DNA of 20,492 bases from a virus. This document shows positions 11,127 to 20,492 of this stretch, piece after piece. The position numbers and the translations under genes are program-made. Position 1 is the stretch's first letter. Each line of letters starts with the position of its first letter. The DNA is taken from the IMG/VR virus record IMGVR_UViG_3300031951_001485, positions 1 to 20,492 of that record. One strand, written 5' to 3'. The notes beneath the pieces are model-generated. The model did no database searches. It was given only the letters and a program-made list of their open reading frames with translations, and was not told where the DNA came from.

Positions 11127-13162
11127 TATCTTACTCTACCTTTAATGTCTGAATCAGGAAACTTTATTTCAAAAACTGAAGGGTCTAAAGATGGATAAAT
11201 AATTTTATCTTTAGTAGCTGCTTCAATATTATAAGAATTGGAAGAATACTTTCCTCCGCATTTATTTGTAAATTTTAACATTGGTACAGATGAAACACCT
11301 TCTACATTTGCTATTAACAATTCTACCTCACTCAAATTAATTGTCTGATTAAATGTCCAATTATCGATATTAAAATAATCTTTAAGTTCGTTTATTACTT
11401 TTAAAAGAATTTCACTTTTATTGTAATTTCCATAAACAACAATTTCAAAATCTAAACCAATATTAATTACAAATCCATCATTTATGTTAATACCATCTGT
11501 TAAAATTCTATATTCATTTAAGTAAGTTTTAAGATTTTCTTTGACACCTCTATTAAGGTTTGTTAAGTTTCCTCTATTATCATATCCCAACAAATACAAA
11601 TTTATTGCAAACGGATTATTTTTTTCATTTTCATTTGAAGTTTTGCCAATTAAATATTTTGTTATTTCTTCTTTTATACTTTGTTGAGTTGGTTCTTCAG
11701 CATCAGGCTTATTAACAAAACTCATTACTAAATCAGTAAATTCTTGCAAATGATTTGGTGATGCTAATATAGAAGATGGTGAGTTATTATCTAATGTACC
11801 ATCTGCTACAGCGTATGCTTTTGCAATAGCACCATATTTTGCAGGCATTGATAACGTTCTTACTTGATAATCTTTTGCAGTTACTGCTCTATTTTGTGCT
11901 CCAAAGAAAGCTAAAGCGTTTTGTCTAATTTCTTCTAAACTTTCAGCACTTCTACCACCAGTAGCTGGTACTTCATTATCAATTGCTACTGAAGCTTTGA
12001 TTGTATTGTAAATTGCTTTTTCTGCAGTTGTAAAAGCGTCTGTATCTTCATCCAATTCAATCTTACTTATTCTAGTAAGTTGTCCTACTGCTATATTAGA
12101 TTGAACACCTCCGCCAACTAAATACTTTACAGTCATTGTTGTATTTGATGGGGATGTACCATAAGTTTTTGTTTTTAGAAAGTTAGTAGGGTCAAATGAT
12201 TCATCTAATCTATCTATTGAGTTTGGTAAACCAAGTCCTACATTTTTTAAATTTGGTATTAATTGTTCATCACTAGCTGATGAATCGCCTGCACCAAATT
12301 GTATTGTTGTTGTATTATTTTGATTTACTTTTGAAACATATCGTCTTGATGTCTTTATAGTTTTTAAGATATAAGGAACAGTAGATTTAAATTGATACAA
12401 ATCAGGATCATTTTTTTCTAAATTAGGTTCATCTAAAAAAACCATTTCTTGAGCTAAATATGGAACTTCATACCATTTGTTTCCATTACCATCTCTTACA
12501 TCATAAATTTGTATAACATTTGTATCATCTAAAGTAATTTTTTGGAAAGGGGAGTATGCATCAAAAGTAACTGATTTTTGTTTCAGTTCTCCAGATATTG
12601 CTTGAACGTATTTTTTAACTAAATAAAATAAAGGTTCACCAGTATTAGCATCTCTTTGATATATTGTAATTTCTCTATTTGTTTCATCTGAAAAATCTAC
12701 AACATCAGTTGTTCTAAATGTTATAGCTGCTTTGTTTGATTTTGTTATTAATCCTTCTTTAATTCTTAAATAATATTTTGAATCAGGAATGTTATTAATA
12801 CCAGTTCCAATTGATGGAACTAACTGATATATACTTAAATTTGTAACAGCTGGCGCAGATACTTTTGGTTTATATCCCAAATATTGTGCCAATGCTAAAA
12901 CACTTTGAGGGTCTTCCGCATACACCATTAATGATTCTTTTAAAGTATCATCAATATAATATGATAATGAATCACCTATGTACGATGCCATTTCAATAAA
13001 CATCATACCGGGTGATGATTCATTAAAATCTGAATAAGTTTTAGGAAAATACGTTTTAGCAAATTCTATTAAGTTGTTTCTAAATGATACAAAATCTTTA
13101 TTAAGATACTTAATATCTTTTCCTTTATTTTTAAAATTTTTATTTGTAATTGTTACTGACAT
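11126..13162 (-). CDS. 6: Baseplate wedge protein gp6 (baseplate J-like), 678 aa
   Basis: This is the wedge protein that forms the inner ring of the T4 baseplate; T4 gp6 is 660 residues, close to the 678 here. The N-terminal third has the family signature region around 90-120 (LAQYLGYKPKVSAPAVTNLS), preceded by SPGMMFIEMASYIGDSLSYY. The baseplate J core is near residues 395-440 (SAESLEEIRQNALAFFGAQN, then RAVTAKDYQVRTL), the most conserved segment of J/gp6 proteins. The C-terminal part has the gp6-like run of beta strands (FEIVVYGNYNKSEIL) and a closing GRVR. It follows gp25 by 10 nt and overlaps the next gene by one base (TAATG). The gp25-gp6 pair matches W-J synteny of contractile tails. 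Confidence 0.92.
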   Translation of the reverse strand: MSVTITNKNFKNKGKDIKYLNKDFVSFRNNLIEFAKTYFPKTYSDFNESSPGMMFIEMASYIGDSLSYYIDDTLKESLMVYAEDPQSVLALAQYLGYKPKVSAPAVTNLSIYQLVPSIGTGINNIPDSKYYLRIKEGLITKSNKAAITFRTTDVVDFSDETNREITIYQRDANTGEPLFYLVKKYVQAISGELKQKSVTFDAYSPFQKITLDDTNVIQIYDVRDGNGNKWYEVPYLAQEMVFLDEPNLEKNDPDLYQFKSTVPYILKTIKTSRRYVSKVNQNNTTTIQFGAGDSSASDEQLIPNLKNVGLGLPNSIDRLDESFDPTNFLKTKTYGTSPSNTTMTVKYLVGGGVQSNIAVGQLTRISKIELDEDTDAFTTAEKAIYNTIKASVAIDNEVPATGGRSAESLEEIRQNALAFFGAQNRAVTAKDYQVRTLSMPAKYGAIAKAYAVADGTLDNNSPSSILASPNHLQEFTDLVMSFVNKPDAEEPTQQSIKEEITKYLIGKTSNENEKNNPFAINLYLLGYDNRGNLTNLNRGVKENLKTYLNEYRILTDGININDGFVINIGLDFEIVVYGNYNKSEILLKVINELKDYFNIDNWTFNQTINLSEVELLIANVEGVSSVPMLKFTNKCGGKYSSNSYNIEAATKDKIIYPSLDPSVFEIKFPDSDIKGRVR

Positions 13163-18022: not shown

Positions 18023-18415
18023 TTACTTTATTGATTTTTTAAGTTCTTCTAATTCAAACTCCAAATCATCCACTCTTTCAACTTCTTGCTTAGTTTCTTC
18101 CAACTCTTTAAGTAGTTGATTTTTTTCAAATTCCGTAAGAAATCCATCCTGTCCTTCAGTCTTTTTATCAGCTGCTATAATCTTTGTTGCAATAGTTGCT
18201 AACTTAACTAATTGGTCATCATTCTTTACAGAACTATCAATAAGCGAAGATAGTACAGGTCCTACGGTAGCAACATCACCTGCATGCTTTACCATTTTTT
18301 TCAGTTCTTCTATAAGACCTGATATTTTTTGTTTTTTGGAAAGTTGGTTGTTATAGATATCCTCAAATAGAGAACTTAGGTTTTTTCCTTTAAATAACTC
18401 GAATTCTGTTGACAT
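18023..18415 (-). CDS. Small coiled-coil structural protein preceding the spike gene, 130 aa
   Basis: It is helical throughout. The N-terminus has FELFKGKNLSSLFEDIYNNQ; the middle (about 27-85) has ISGLIEELKKMVKHAGDVAT and VKNDDQLVKLATIATKIIAA; residues about 95-129 form an acidic and basic heptad pattern (LLKELEETKQEVERVDDLEF) suited to a coiled coil. There is no transmembrane or catalytic motif. It is the first gene of the spike-lysin block, after a 51-nt gap with the ATATTTATA element, and ends 1 nt before the spike gene. I recall similar proteins ahead of hub genes in other T4-like phages but cannot name the family. A hub assembly or tail-tube-end role is inferred. Confidence 0.7.
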   Translation of the reverse strand: MSTEFELFKGKNLSSLFEDIYNNQLSKKQKISGLIEELKKMVKHAGDVATVGPVLSSLIDSSVKNDDQLVKLATIATKIIAADKKTEGQDGFLTEFEKNQLLKELEETKQEVERVDDLEFELEELKKSIK

Positions 18416-18466: not shown

Positions 18467-19279
18467 TTATTCTGCGATTACCTCAATCTTAATCTTTGGT
18501 TGATAATCTTTTGGTAATTTGTTAGTAATACCTTTAAATTCTTTTACTTTGTTCTTAAAATAAGTAATTTGTAAGATTTTATCAGTAAGATTCATTACAG
18601 TCTGAGAAGAAGTTGACATCTCATTTGTATCTCTTTTCATATTCAATTGAGGTCTTTTTGGGAAGAACTCTTTTCTCATAGCTGCTGCTATTTCTTTCCA
18701 ATCTTCAACTCTATCAACTGATTTTTCAGCTGATATCTTTCTCATTTTTGATGATAGGTATTTCTCACCATGTGTGTATCCGGCATCAGTAAAAAGATGT
18801 CCGTGATTTGTACGAACAACTGGTGATTCGGAGTTTTGAAGTTTAACATCAGGCTTATGCTTTGATGTAGTTTCAATACTAATCAAATGTTTTGGTGATG
18901 ATACGAAAGTGTGACCTTTAAGAGATAAACCACTACTACCTTTATAAGATATTGCAGCTCTAACGGCTTTTATTAGTGTAGGTTGTTTAATAATATTTCT
19001 CATCTTATCACCATCAGGACCCGGCTTACCACCTTTCTTTACTATCTTAGCTTCTGCTTCATCATGTCCAACAAGTAATGCTGAGTTTACTACACCAATA
19101 CCATGTTCATTCAAACCTTCACTCCAATCAGTAATTAAATCATGCAAATACGCAACTTCTACACCATCAATAATGGTATGGACAATTTCAAGTTCTGGAT
19201 TATACATTCTATCCCTATTTTTAGCAAGGATAAATTTATCACCAACTTCTTTTGATACAATAATACATTCGTTTATCAT
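18467..19279 (-). CDS. C45-like N-terminal-nucleophile (Ntn) hydrolase, 270 aa
   Basis: The order of motifs matches Ntn-hydrolases of the acyl-CoA:6-APA acyltransferase/C45 type: a nucleophile candidate Cys5 (MINECIIVSK), LAKNRDR with Asn21-Arg22-Asp23, GLNEHGIGVVNSAL at 55-68, VVRTNHGHLF with the T-N-H triad at 157-159, then LSSKMR at 175-180. These enzymes hydrolyse or transfer amide-linked acyl groups and need a free N-terminal nucleophile, so removal of MINE would be required, as in penicillin V acylase, which loses a short propeptide. Bacterial relatives are often about 350 residues, so this is compact. The C-terminal 60 residues (LTDKILQITYFKNKVKEFKG) look helical and basic. The start overlaps the upstream stop (ATGA). 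The substrate is unknown; candidates are N-acyl signals, peptides or wall components. Confidence 0.68.
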   Translation of the reverse strand: MINECIIVSKEVGDKFILAKNRDRMYNPELEIVHTIIDGVEVAYLHDLITDWSEGLNEHGIGVVNSALLVGHDEAEAKIVKKGGKPGPDGDKMRNIIKQPTLIKAVRAAISYKGSSGLSLKGHTFVSSPKHLISIETTSKHKPDVKLQNSESPVVRTNHGHLFTDAGYTHGEKYLSSKMRKISAEKSVDRVEDWKEIAAAMRKEFFPKRPQLNMKRDTNEMSTSSQTVMNLTDKILQITYFKNKVKEFKGITNKLPKDYQPKIKIEVIAE

Positions 19280-19509
19280 CTTACAGTACTGCTAAATGCT
19301 TTTTTTAAATCGTATGTTTGTGAAAGGTCTATAACCTGGACTCTTAATTTTGTCAAACCATGTTTTTGTTTAAGAATATCCATTACCTTCTTAGCTTCAG
19401 GCATACTCTTAGCTTTTGTATATGCTACAACTTCATCTCTTTCACCAGGAGGAACTCCCCAAATGATGAATTCTTTTTCTTCTTTTAATAATGATTTAAG
19501 AGTTATCAT
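19276..19509 (-). CDS. Small protein with capsid-targeting-like 10-residue leader, 77 aa
   Basis: The first ten residues are MITLKSLLKE, nearly identical to the leader of the upstream 182-aa protein (MIKLKSLLKE), while the bodies are unrelated. The leader ends in L-K-E, which fits the T4 prohead protease consensus (I/L)-X-E, with Glu at position 10 as in T4 internal protein leaders (for example MKTYQEFIAE). The body of 67 residues looks like a small alpha/beta fold (FIIWGVPPGERDEVVAYTKA, then MPEAKKVMDILKQKHG and RVQVIDLSQT) with basic residues. There are ATGA overlaps at both ends (19506-19509, 19276-19279). Packaging in the head is inferred from the leader; the function after that is unknown. 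Confidence 0.7.
   Translation of the reverse strand: MITLKSLLKEEKEFIIWGVPPGERDEVVAYTKAKSMPEAKKVMDILKQKHGLTKLRVQVIDLSQTYDLKKAFSSTVR
19480..19509 (-). other. Leader-coding segment 2 (MITLKSLLKE)
   Basis: These 30 nt encode the shared leader in the 77-aa gene and are identical at 26 of 30 positions to the leader segment of the 182-aa gene (20025-20054), whereas the rest of the two genes shows no similarity. Confidence 0.75.
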
Positions 19510-20054
19510 ATAGTTTGTAGCCCTTGTTTTTCTGCGTATTGATTAATAAAACCTTTTACTTGTCCACTTTTTAAAACATCGGTAAATTCTTCAACTGCTT
19601 TATTTAATGTATTTAATTTCCATTGTGAATATGTAAGTTCTAATTTTGTATCACCAGGTATATCCTTTGAATTTTTATCTTTAGATGGATATAATTCTTT
19701 AAACACTTTATCTAACTCATCTTCTGCAGGCTTACTTGTCAACCATTTTTTAACTAATGATTTTTCATAAACAAAAGCCTCAAAGTTAAACTTACCATCT
19801 TTTGATTTTGATTCTAAACTTTTTAGCTTATTATCATTTTTTAAAGTGTAGTAAACAAACTTATTAAACTTATCATTTTTATCTAATCTATCTAACCACT
19901 TTAAATAAGCTTTACCAATTTCTTTTTCTTTTACCGAACCACTTCTGAATGAAAGGATAGCTTGTTTAATTGCCCATATAGCAGCGGTTACTGCTATATT
20001 AATTAATATAGTTGTAGTGATATCTTCTTTTAAAAGTGATTTAAGTTTTATCAT
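19506..20054 (-). CDS. Membrane-segment protein with capsid-targeting-like 10-residue leader, 182 aa
   Basis: The leader MIKLKSLLKE matches that of the 77-aa protein and the T4-type processing site L-K-E. Immediately after it, residues about 12-36 (ITTTILINIAVTAAIWAI and onward) form a hydrophobic helix long enough to span a membrane. The rest (40-182) is Lys/Asp-rich, soluble and helical, with many Lys-Asp pairs (KNDNKLKSLESKSKDGKFNF). If cleaved after Glu10, the product would have a membrane-active N-terminus of about 25 residues and a charged body. It starts one base inside the stop of the 143-aa gene (TAATG) and ends in an ATGA overlap. No known family is recognised. An injected or membrane-inserting role is an inference. 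Confidence 0.65.
   Translation of the reverse strand: MIKLKSLLKEDITTTILINIAVTAAIWAIKQAILSFRSGSVKEKEIGKAYLKWLDRLDKNDKFNKFVYYTLKNDNKLKSLESKSKDGKFNFEAFVYEKSLVKKWLTSKPAEDELDKVFKELYPSKDKNSKDIPGDTKLELTYSQWKLNTLNKAVEEFTDVLKSGQVKGFINQYAEKQGLQTI
20025..20054 (-). other. Leader-coding segment 1 (MIKLKSLLKE)
   Basis: These 30 nt encode the shared leader in the 182-aa gene; the partner is 19480-19509. Four mismatches, two in codon 3 and two in codon 7 (CTT versus TTA, both Leu), separate the two copies. Confidence 0.75.
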
Positions 20055-20485
20055 TATCCTTTACAGGTTTTCCAGCCACCACCTTTTGATTTGTAATTTT
20101 TTGCAGCCCAACCATTTGCGTAAGCCGATGGATATACATCAAACTTTCTTTTTGCTGCTGCTTTTGATGCTGACCATTTTGCTGGGTCAGTTGGACAATT
20201 CTTTTCTAAGAATAATTCTATTGCTTCTTCAACAACTTCTCTTTTCTTTCTACCCTGACAATGTGCTTTTTGAGAAAATCCTTTTGGGTTATTACAATCA
20301 ATAGAACGTTTATAAGATGTACTCCATTTTTCATTCATTTCACCAAGCCCACATCTTTCCATAAACTCATCGGCGTTTACATCAATACCTTCTTTTTTGA
20401 AATCTCTTAATCTATCCAATGCCATTTGTTTGCGGTTATCTATATCTTTAACCTGAACTAGCATTTCAACAATACCATCAATCAT
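20054..20485 (-). CDS. YPSAYANGWA-motif protein with Cys/His basic segment, 143 aa; start uncertain
   Basis: The C-terminal part (about 97-138) carries SASKAAAKRKFDVYPSAYAN then GWAAKNYK, a motif I associate with DUF5872-like domains of T4-like phages and giant viruses; the function is not established. Residues 58-82 hold YKRSIDCNNPKGFSQKAHCQ followed by GRKKR, a basic Cys/His segment that could bind nucleic acid or metal. The first 45 residues are a charged helix (IVEMLVQVKDIDNRKQ, LDRLRDFKKEGIDV). The frame remains open from the ATG at 20485 to the right edge (two more codons, Lys-Glu), so a start upstream of the window is possible and the protein may be 5'-truncated here. The stop overlaps the next start (TAATG), which ties it to the leader-bearing proteins. 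Confidence 0.65.
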   Translation of the reverse strand: MIDGIVEMLVQVKDIDNRKQMALDRLRDFKKEGIDVNADEFMERCGLGEMNEKWSTSYKRSIDCNNPKGFSQKAHCQGRKKREVVEEAIELFLEKNCPTDPAKWSASKAAAKRKFDVYPSAYANGWAAKNYKSKGGGWKTCKG

Positions 20486-20492
20486 TTCTTTT

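Follow-up and report, generated by a model that had tools for sequence, protein, structure and literature searches.

A ten-residue leader on unrelated proteins of T4-like myoviruses, a probable capsid-targeting propeptide

A ten-residue leader of the general form MIxL..LLxE was found at the start of many otherwise unrelated proteins encoded by a T4-like myovirus and its relatives, and its conservation ends at residue 10. Judging from the sequences, it is very likely that this leader is a capsid-targeting propeptide and that the proteins bearing it are packaged and cleaved. A wider reading is given about an even chance: environmental T4-like phages would use a common ten-residue tag, outside the T-even phages, to load their heads with a large and fast-exchanged range of unrelated effectors (ADP-ribosyltransferases, NUDIX, tRNA repair, DHH, zeta-toxin-like proteins, and acetyltransferases) that are delivered together with the genome; some tags would be internal and mark polyproteins that gp21 opens, and gp21 may also activate an adjacent Ntn-hydrolase.

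The stretch of DNA analyzed here, referred to as the window, spans an entire IMG/VR record (20,492 bases) and represents a fragment of a T4-like myovirus. It includes gp6-like and gp25-like baseplate wedge genes, and the nearest annotated gp6 homologues are from Microcystis phage Mel-JY01, an uncultured phage, and Flavobacterium phage immuto, with 38-43% identity. The preliminary description of this DNA reported two adjacent genes with nearly identical starts, and this observation is confirmed: the two leaders are identical at 26 of 30 bases and 9 of 10 residues, while the bodies of the 77-aa and 182-aa proteins are unrelated. The observation was understated, since a third gene in the row carries the leader too. 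This gene is cut by the end of the window; its longer copies in three relatives (G003, G005, and G007) start 17 residues earlier with MIKLSNLLKE and encode 160 aa (MIKLSNLLKEEQPHQKE). Its C-terminus includes a DUF5872-like motif, below the family cut-off. The features are listed in Table 1.

Table 1. Leader genes and constant downstream flank genes in the window (arrow, predicted or possible cut)
Feature	Position	Strand	Remarks
77-aa gene	19276-19509	minus	MITLKSLLKE start
Leader, 77-aa gene: MITLKSLLKE	19480-19509	minus	predicted cut after Glu10
Body, 77-aa gene, residues 11-77	19279-19479	minus	
182-aa gene	19506-20054	minus	MIKLKSLLKE start
Leader, 182-aa gene: MIKLKSLLKE	20025-20054	minus	predicted cut after Glu10
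Body, 182-aa gene, residues 11-182	19509-20024	minus	helical
Third leader gene, cut by window end	20054-20492	minus	143-aa frame at 20054-20485
Ntn-hydrolase-like protein, 270 aa, constant downstream flank	18467-19279	minus	start MINE↓C
130-aa gene, MSTEFELFKGK..., constant downstream flank	18023-18415	minus	first of block leading into tail genes

Searches of Pfam, PHROGs, and NCBIfam with the 77-aa and 182-aa proteins gave no significant family. For the 182-aa protein, a fold search of its model against PDB gave no match at E ≤ 0.001, and tblastn against annotated phages gave no match. A hydrophobic segment lies directly behind the predicted cut in the 182-aa body. The 77-aa body has a leaderless homologue, gp88 of Rhodobacter phage RcPescado, a phage in which no gp21 match was found.

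Nine relatives were gathered through body homology, and in them the leader genes are placed between constant flanks: a 218-aa and a 90-aa gene upstream, and the Ntn-hydrolase and 130-aa genes downstream. In every close relative with a contig reaching that far, the 130-aa gene is found at the same position. Between the flanks there are one to six genes, a number that partly depends on the contig coverage of the region. All 33 of these genes start with MIxL when alternative starts are picked in favour of MIxL, and 31 have Glu10. Among the 21 distinct ten-mers, positions 1, 2, and 4 are fully constant, position 7 is Leu or Ile, position 8 is hydrophobic (L, I, M, or F), and Glu10 is present in 20; the one family without it starts with MIRLSDIFVK. 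The 90-aa flank gene itself starts with MI(K/R)LxxLNE↓A, a nine-residue variant of the leader.

Gene content and order vary between the flanks. The 182-type gene is followed by the 77-type gene in one relative (G003), while the 77-type gene is followed by a 189-aa gene in another (G004); one cassette (G010) is without a 182-type gene, and one (G002) includes a DHH phosphoesterase-like gene. Two in-frame fusions were also recognized. In G002 the 77-aa body lies behind another leader protein with the internal ITLKSFLKE↓EKEF kept, and in G001 the 182-aa body lies behind another leader segment with the internal SKLSEILKE↓GILQ kept. The suggestion of a modular cassette, in which bodies are exchanged and the leader stays fixed, is thus well supported by the constant MIxL of genes whose set and order change. 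Such an array would gain, lose, reorder, and fuse bodies while retaining the leader.

Modules of the window cassette were also seen in cyanophage proteins encoded beside the small terminase gene, in S-BM3 (L358, 1318-2331) and Sf-CH8 (L357, 1501-3022). In S-BM3, one chain contains two such modules in fused form, and (M/L)xE stands at their joints. The gene that follows in Sf-CH8 (Sf-CH8_73) starts with MKSYKQFMSE, near the T4 tag.

The first ten residues of the T4 internal protein IPIII are sufficient for packaging; mutations at residues 4 and 7 mainly affect targeting and those at residues 8 and 10 processing, and gp21 cleaves after L/I-X-E (PMC9026906). From T4 gp24, gp21 removes exactly ten residues (PMC9958956). 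The conserved positions of the leader are the key IPIII positions 4, 7, 8, and 10, plus residue 2. When frames were selected by residues 1-8 alone, 64 of the 85 had Glu10, and from residue 11 on the sequences were near background. A cut after residue 10 had been predicted in the preliminary description; Glu10 in nearly all cassette genes and the end of conservation at that point agree with it.

A leader matrix built from one leader per body cluster was applied to T4 frames, and gp24 (MAKINELLRE) ranked first among 256. The IPII/IPIII tags (MKTYQEFIAE) were not among the best T4 scores, which indicates that the leader resembles them by position, not by letters. Intermediate tag forms exist, such as MKTFKEFIKE in T4 gp61.1 and the start of Sf-CH8_73. 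The proposal of a T4-style capsid-targeting leader therefore holds for the key positions, but the letters are nearer to the gp24 propeptide than to the internal-protein tag; the leader would work like the T4 tag, yet is not filed as the same family.

In the proposed mechanism, the leader would bind the prohead core during head assembly, and any body following it would be built into the prohead. A gp21-type prohead protease would cut after Glu10 at (L/I)-x-E and free the mature body within the head. The DNA would be packed around the freed body, which would probably be delivered along with it at infection. Injection of the bodies with the DNA is probable, and an anti-defence role for at least some of them is given a little less than an even chance.

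The preliminary description proposed to look for further leader genes in related phages, and this search was productive. A degenerate leader pattern was found in nine of 10 related records, mostly two to three times each, and never in the reversed control. The same pattern matched at least 120 stretches in IMG/VR, compared with eight matches of the reversed pattern in the whole collection. Among the IMG/VR matches listed, 138 of 139 stand at the start of a frame that is 50 aa or longer or runs off the contig. With a slightly wider protein motif, 223 leader genes from 126 records were collected, with none in reversed DNA. They encode 188 distinct bodies, which fall into at least 90 unrelated clusters at phmmer E < 1e-3.

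Bacterial and archaeal genomes (257 Gb) were scanned as well; among the leader matches listed there, 34 of 118 head a frame of this kind, in line with chance hits in so large a body of DNA. A cellular origin of the leader was rejected, since the bacterial matches are short frames and a recurrent uracil-DNA-glycosylase-like start, and look like chance.

A gp21-like protease, which the preliminary description expected to be encoded, was not found in the window's own 20,492-base record and was found in its relatives. Both gp21 (PF03420) and gp23 (PF07068) are above cut-off in G001, immuto (MW353176.1), and Mel-JY01 (PP395634.1), and gp21 is present also in G002. Among 16 large leader-bearing contigs, 12 have gp21; the remaining four have neither gp21 nor gp23, and the head region is therefore probably missing from them. 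The gp21 profile matched 32 records, and in all 32 leader genes lie on the gp21 strand, several of them within 20 bp. The listed IMG/VR stretches with the degenerate pattern have a mean length of 9.1 kb, and gp21 was found in about a quarter of them, which appears well above the expectation for a random segment of a 150-kb genome. On one contig (L147), four leader genes separate gp21 from the scaffold and capsid genes, and one of the four is a homologue of the N-terminal part of the window's third leader gene. The capsid proteins of relatives have QLLDE↓A, QIVSE↓A, and QLISE↓A near the T4 cut.

The bodies behind the leader show Pfam matches to ART-PolyVal, Zeta_toxin with NT5C, NUDIX, GNAT, DHH, a metallopeptidase-like domain, M23 with Phage_lysozyme2, and Phage_lysozyme, some of them below the curated cut-offs. 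NCBIfam indicated a CCA tRNA nucleotidyltransferase-like protein with the variant leader MRISLKSILLE. Such domains would suit delivery into the host, for example for tRNA repair or nucleotide signalling. The preliminary description expected the leader to be absent from proteins clearly not in the head. It was not found on obvious replication genes, but two leader-bearing bodies are peptidoglycan hydrolases, which could belong to the tail or to lysis.

Related proteins with the leaders MIKLKSLLQE, MIKLKSLLKE, and MIKLMSLVTE are encoded at 60276-62718 of Mel-JY01, a cultured phage, and the bodies behind these leaders start with ISDRVWH(L/V)T and are possibly ADP-ribosyltransferase-like. Individual leader genes lie at 60276-60926 and 62056-62718 of Mel-JY01 and at 24977-25402 of immuto. 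Large nucleotidyltransferase-like proteins with a GRFQPxxxGHH motif region and leader-like starts are encoded upstream of the terminase gene in G001 (45026-47374) and Mel-JY01 (11243-13162). A second, longer leader class, MxNFxLKxFLxEN(K/R)LTxNSxxLxE, was observed in immuto (1803-2318, 117587-118588, and 118588-118887). It heads three otherwise different proteins, two of which adjoin each other and lie just upstream of the terminase.

The Ntn-hydrolase-like protein next to the window cassette has PDB matches to bile salt hydrolases (E 4e-4), obtained with a low-confidence model (mean pLDDT 66). One homologue is just over the PF03417 cut-off, and a C45_proenzyme match (E 1e-5) is below its cut-off. 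Hydrolases of the C45/bile-salt type require a free N-terminal Cys. Glu4-Cys5 is invariant in 10 homologues of the 270-aa protein, and Glu always precedes the predicted catalytic Cys, in MINE in the window and in KLSE, ILQE, KLLE, LKE, and MEE in relatives (L145, L187, L133, L082, and G009). This pattern tentatively suggests that Cys5 may be exposed by a gp21 cut after Glu4; self-cleavage is at least as likely.

Alternatively, the leader could be a propeptide for the prohead core, with most of the bodies being core, structural, or DNA-condensing proteins that remain in the head and are not injected. Many leader genes do sit in the operon of gp21, scaffold, and capsid genes, the best T4 match gp24 is a shell protein, and one basic module is shared with the cyanophage proteins encoded beside terminase and neck genes. 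However, a fixed structural role does not fit bodies so varied and so readily exchanged, the ART-PolyVal, NUDIX, CCA tRNA nucleotidyltransferase-like, DHH, and GNAT enzymes have no obvious role in the head, and T4 Ip1-3, which bear an analogous tag, are injected (PMC12373910). It is thus unlikely that most bodies stay in the head.

An improbable explanation is that the leader is another targeting or interaction signal, such as a short amphipathic helix that sends proteins to the tail, to the membrane, or to some other assembly, with Glu10 left uncut. The amphipathic look of the leader, the position of the window cassette directly upstream of tail genes, and the two peptidoglycan hydrolases fit such a signal, but it does not account for a constant Glu10 with conservation lost right behind it, the position-by-position match with the T4 tag and the first rank of gp24, the adjacency of leader genes to gp21, and the (L/I)-x-E sites retained in fusions. 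The shared start could also be a feature of DNA or RNA, namely a translation start region or a recombination site, encoding a functionless peptide. The DNA identity between the window leaders and the 4-bp overlaps of several cassette genes make it conceivable that a common start assists coupling or exchange. Such a nucleotide-level signal was nevertheless rejected and is regarded as extremely improbable, because codon differences between homologous leaders of relatives are mostly synonymous; the same peptide is encoded by many codon choices, and in the fusions the peptide persists as an internal leader that has no start codon.

Under the preferred reading as a capsid-targeting propeptide, the closest known system is that of the T-even internal proteins. 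T4 Ip1-3 are injected and inhibit GmrSD restriction enzymes, and the leader is all they share (PMC12373910); T-even internal proteins have been characterised as a diverse defence set in which the tag alone is conserved (PMC3012670). As in Ip1-Ip3, the leader described here is a ten-residue N-terminal tag with key positions 4, 7, 8, and 10 and a terminal (L/I)-x-E, the bodies are unrelated, gp21 is encoded in the phage, and the genes are small and lie in exchangeable loci. Unlike in IPII/IPIII, the letters are MIxL..LLxE instead of MKTYQEFIAE, and the leader proteins are known from genes alone. The body families number about 90, in contrast to at least 10 reported from T-even phages (PMC12373910).

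The gp24 propeptide is likewise exactly ten residues long and is the best T4 match, but gp24 is one shell protein, whereas the leader begins many unrelated proteins, among which no capsid protein was recognised. T4 Alt is an injected, head-packaged ADP-ribosyltransferase whose short N-terminal propeptide is cut at ITE-6, and gp53 and gp54 of the phiKZ-like phage SPN3US are diverged proteins with identical N-terminal 15 residues including protease motifs (PMC5694885). An ART-PolyVal body bears the leader here, while Alt has no ten-residue tag and is cut at its C-terminus too. The SPN3US proteins differ in being a paralogue pair with longer propeptides that are cut after A-x-E. A literature search with the letters of this leader and of the T4 leader, which included few subscription papers and no bioRxiv preprints, gave no match. 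The principle is known from T4. Within the literature searched, no description was found of this tag lineage, its spread, or its range of cargo, all of which look new.

If the preferred reading is true, one short motif flags probable injected proteins from sequence in a large, mostly uncultured phage group, most of these proteins lacking annotation, and the phage proteins that enter first become a testable list. New anti-defence and takeover proteins would be drawn from among them, and the leader would be an address tag for loading cargo into the heads of non-T4 phages.

In T4 itself (NC_000866), gp61.1 (18966-19130) is a 54-aa hypothetical protein with the tag-like start given above, and may be an unrecognised internal protein.
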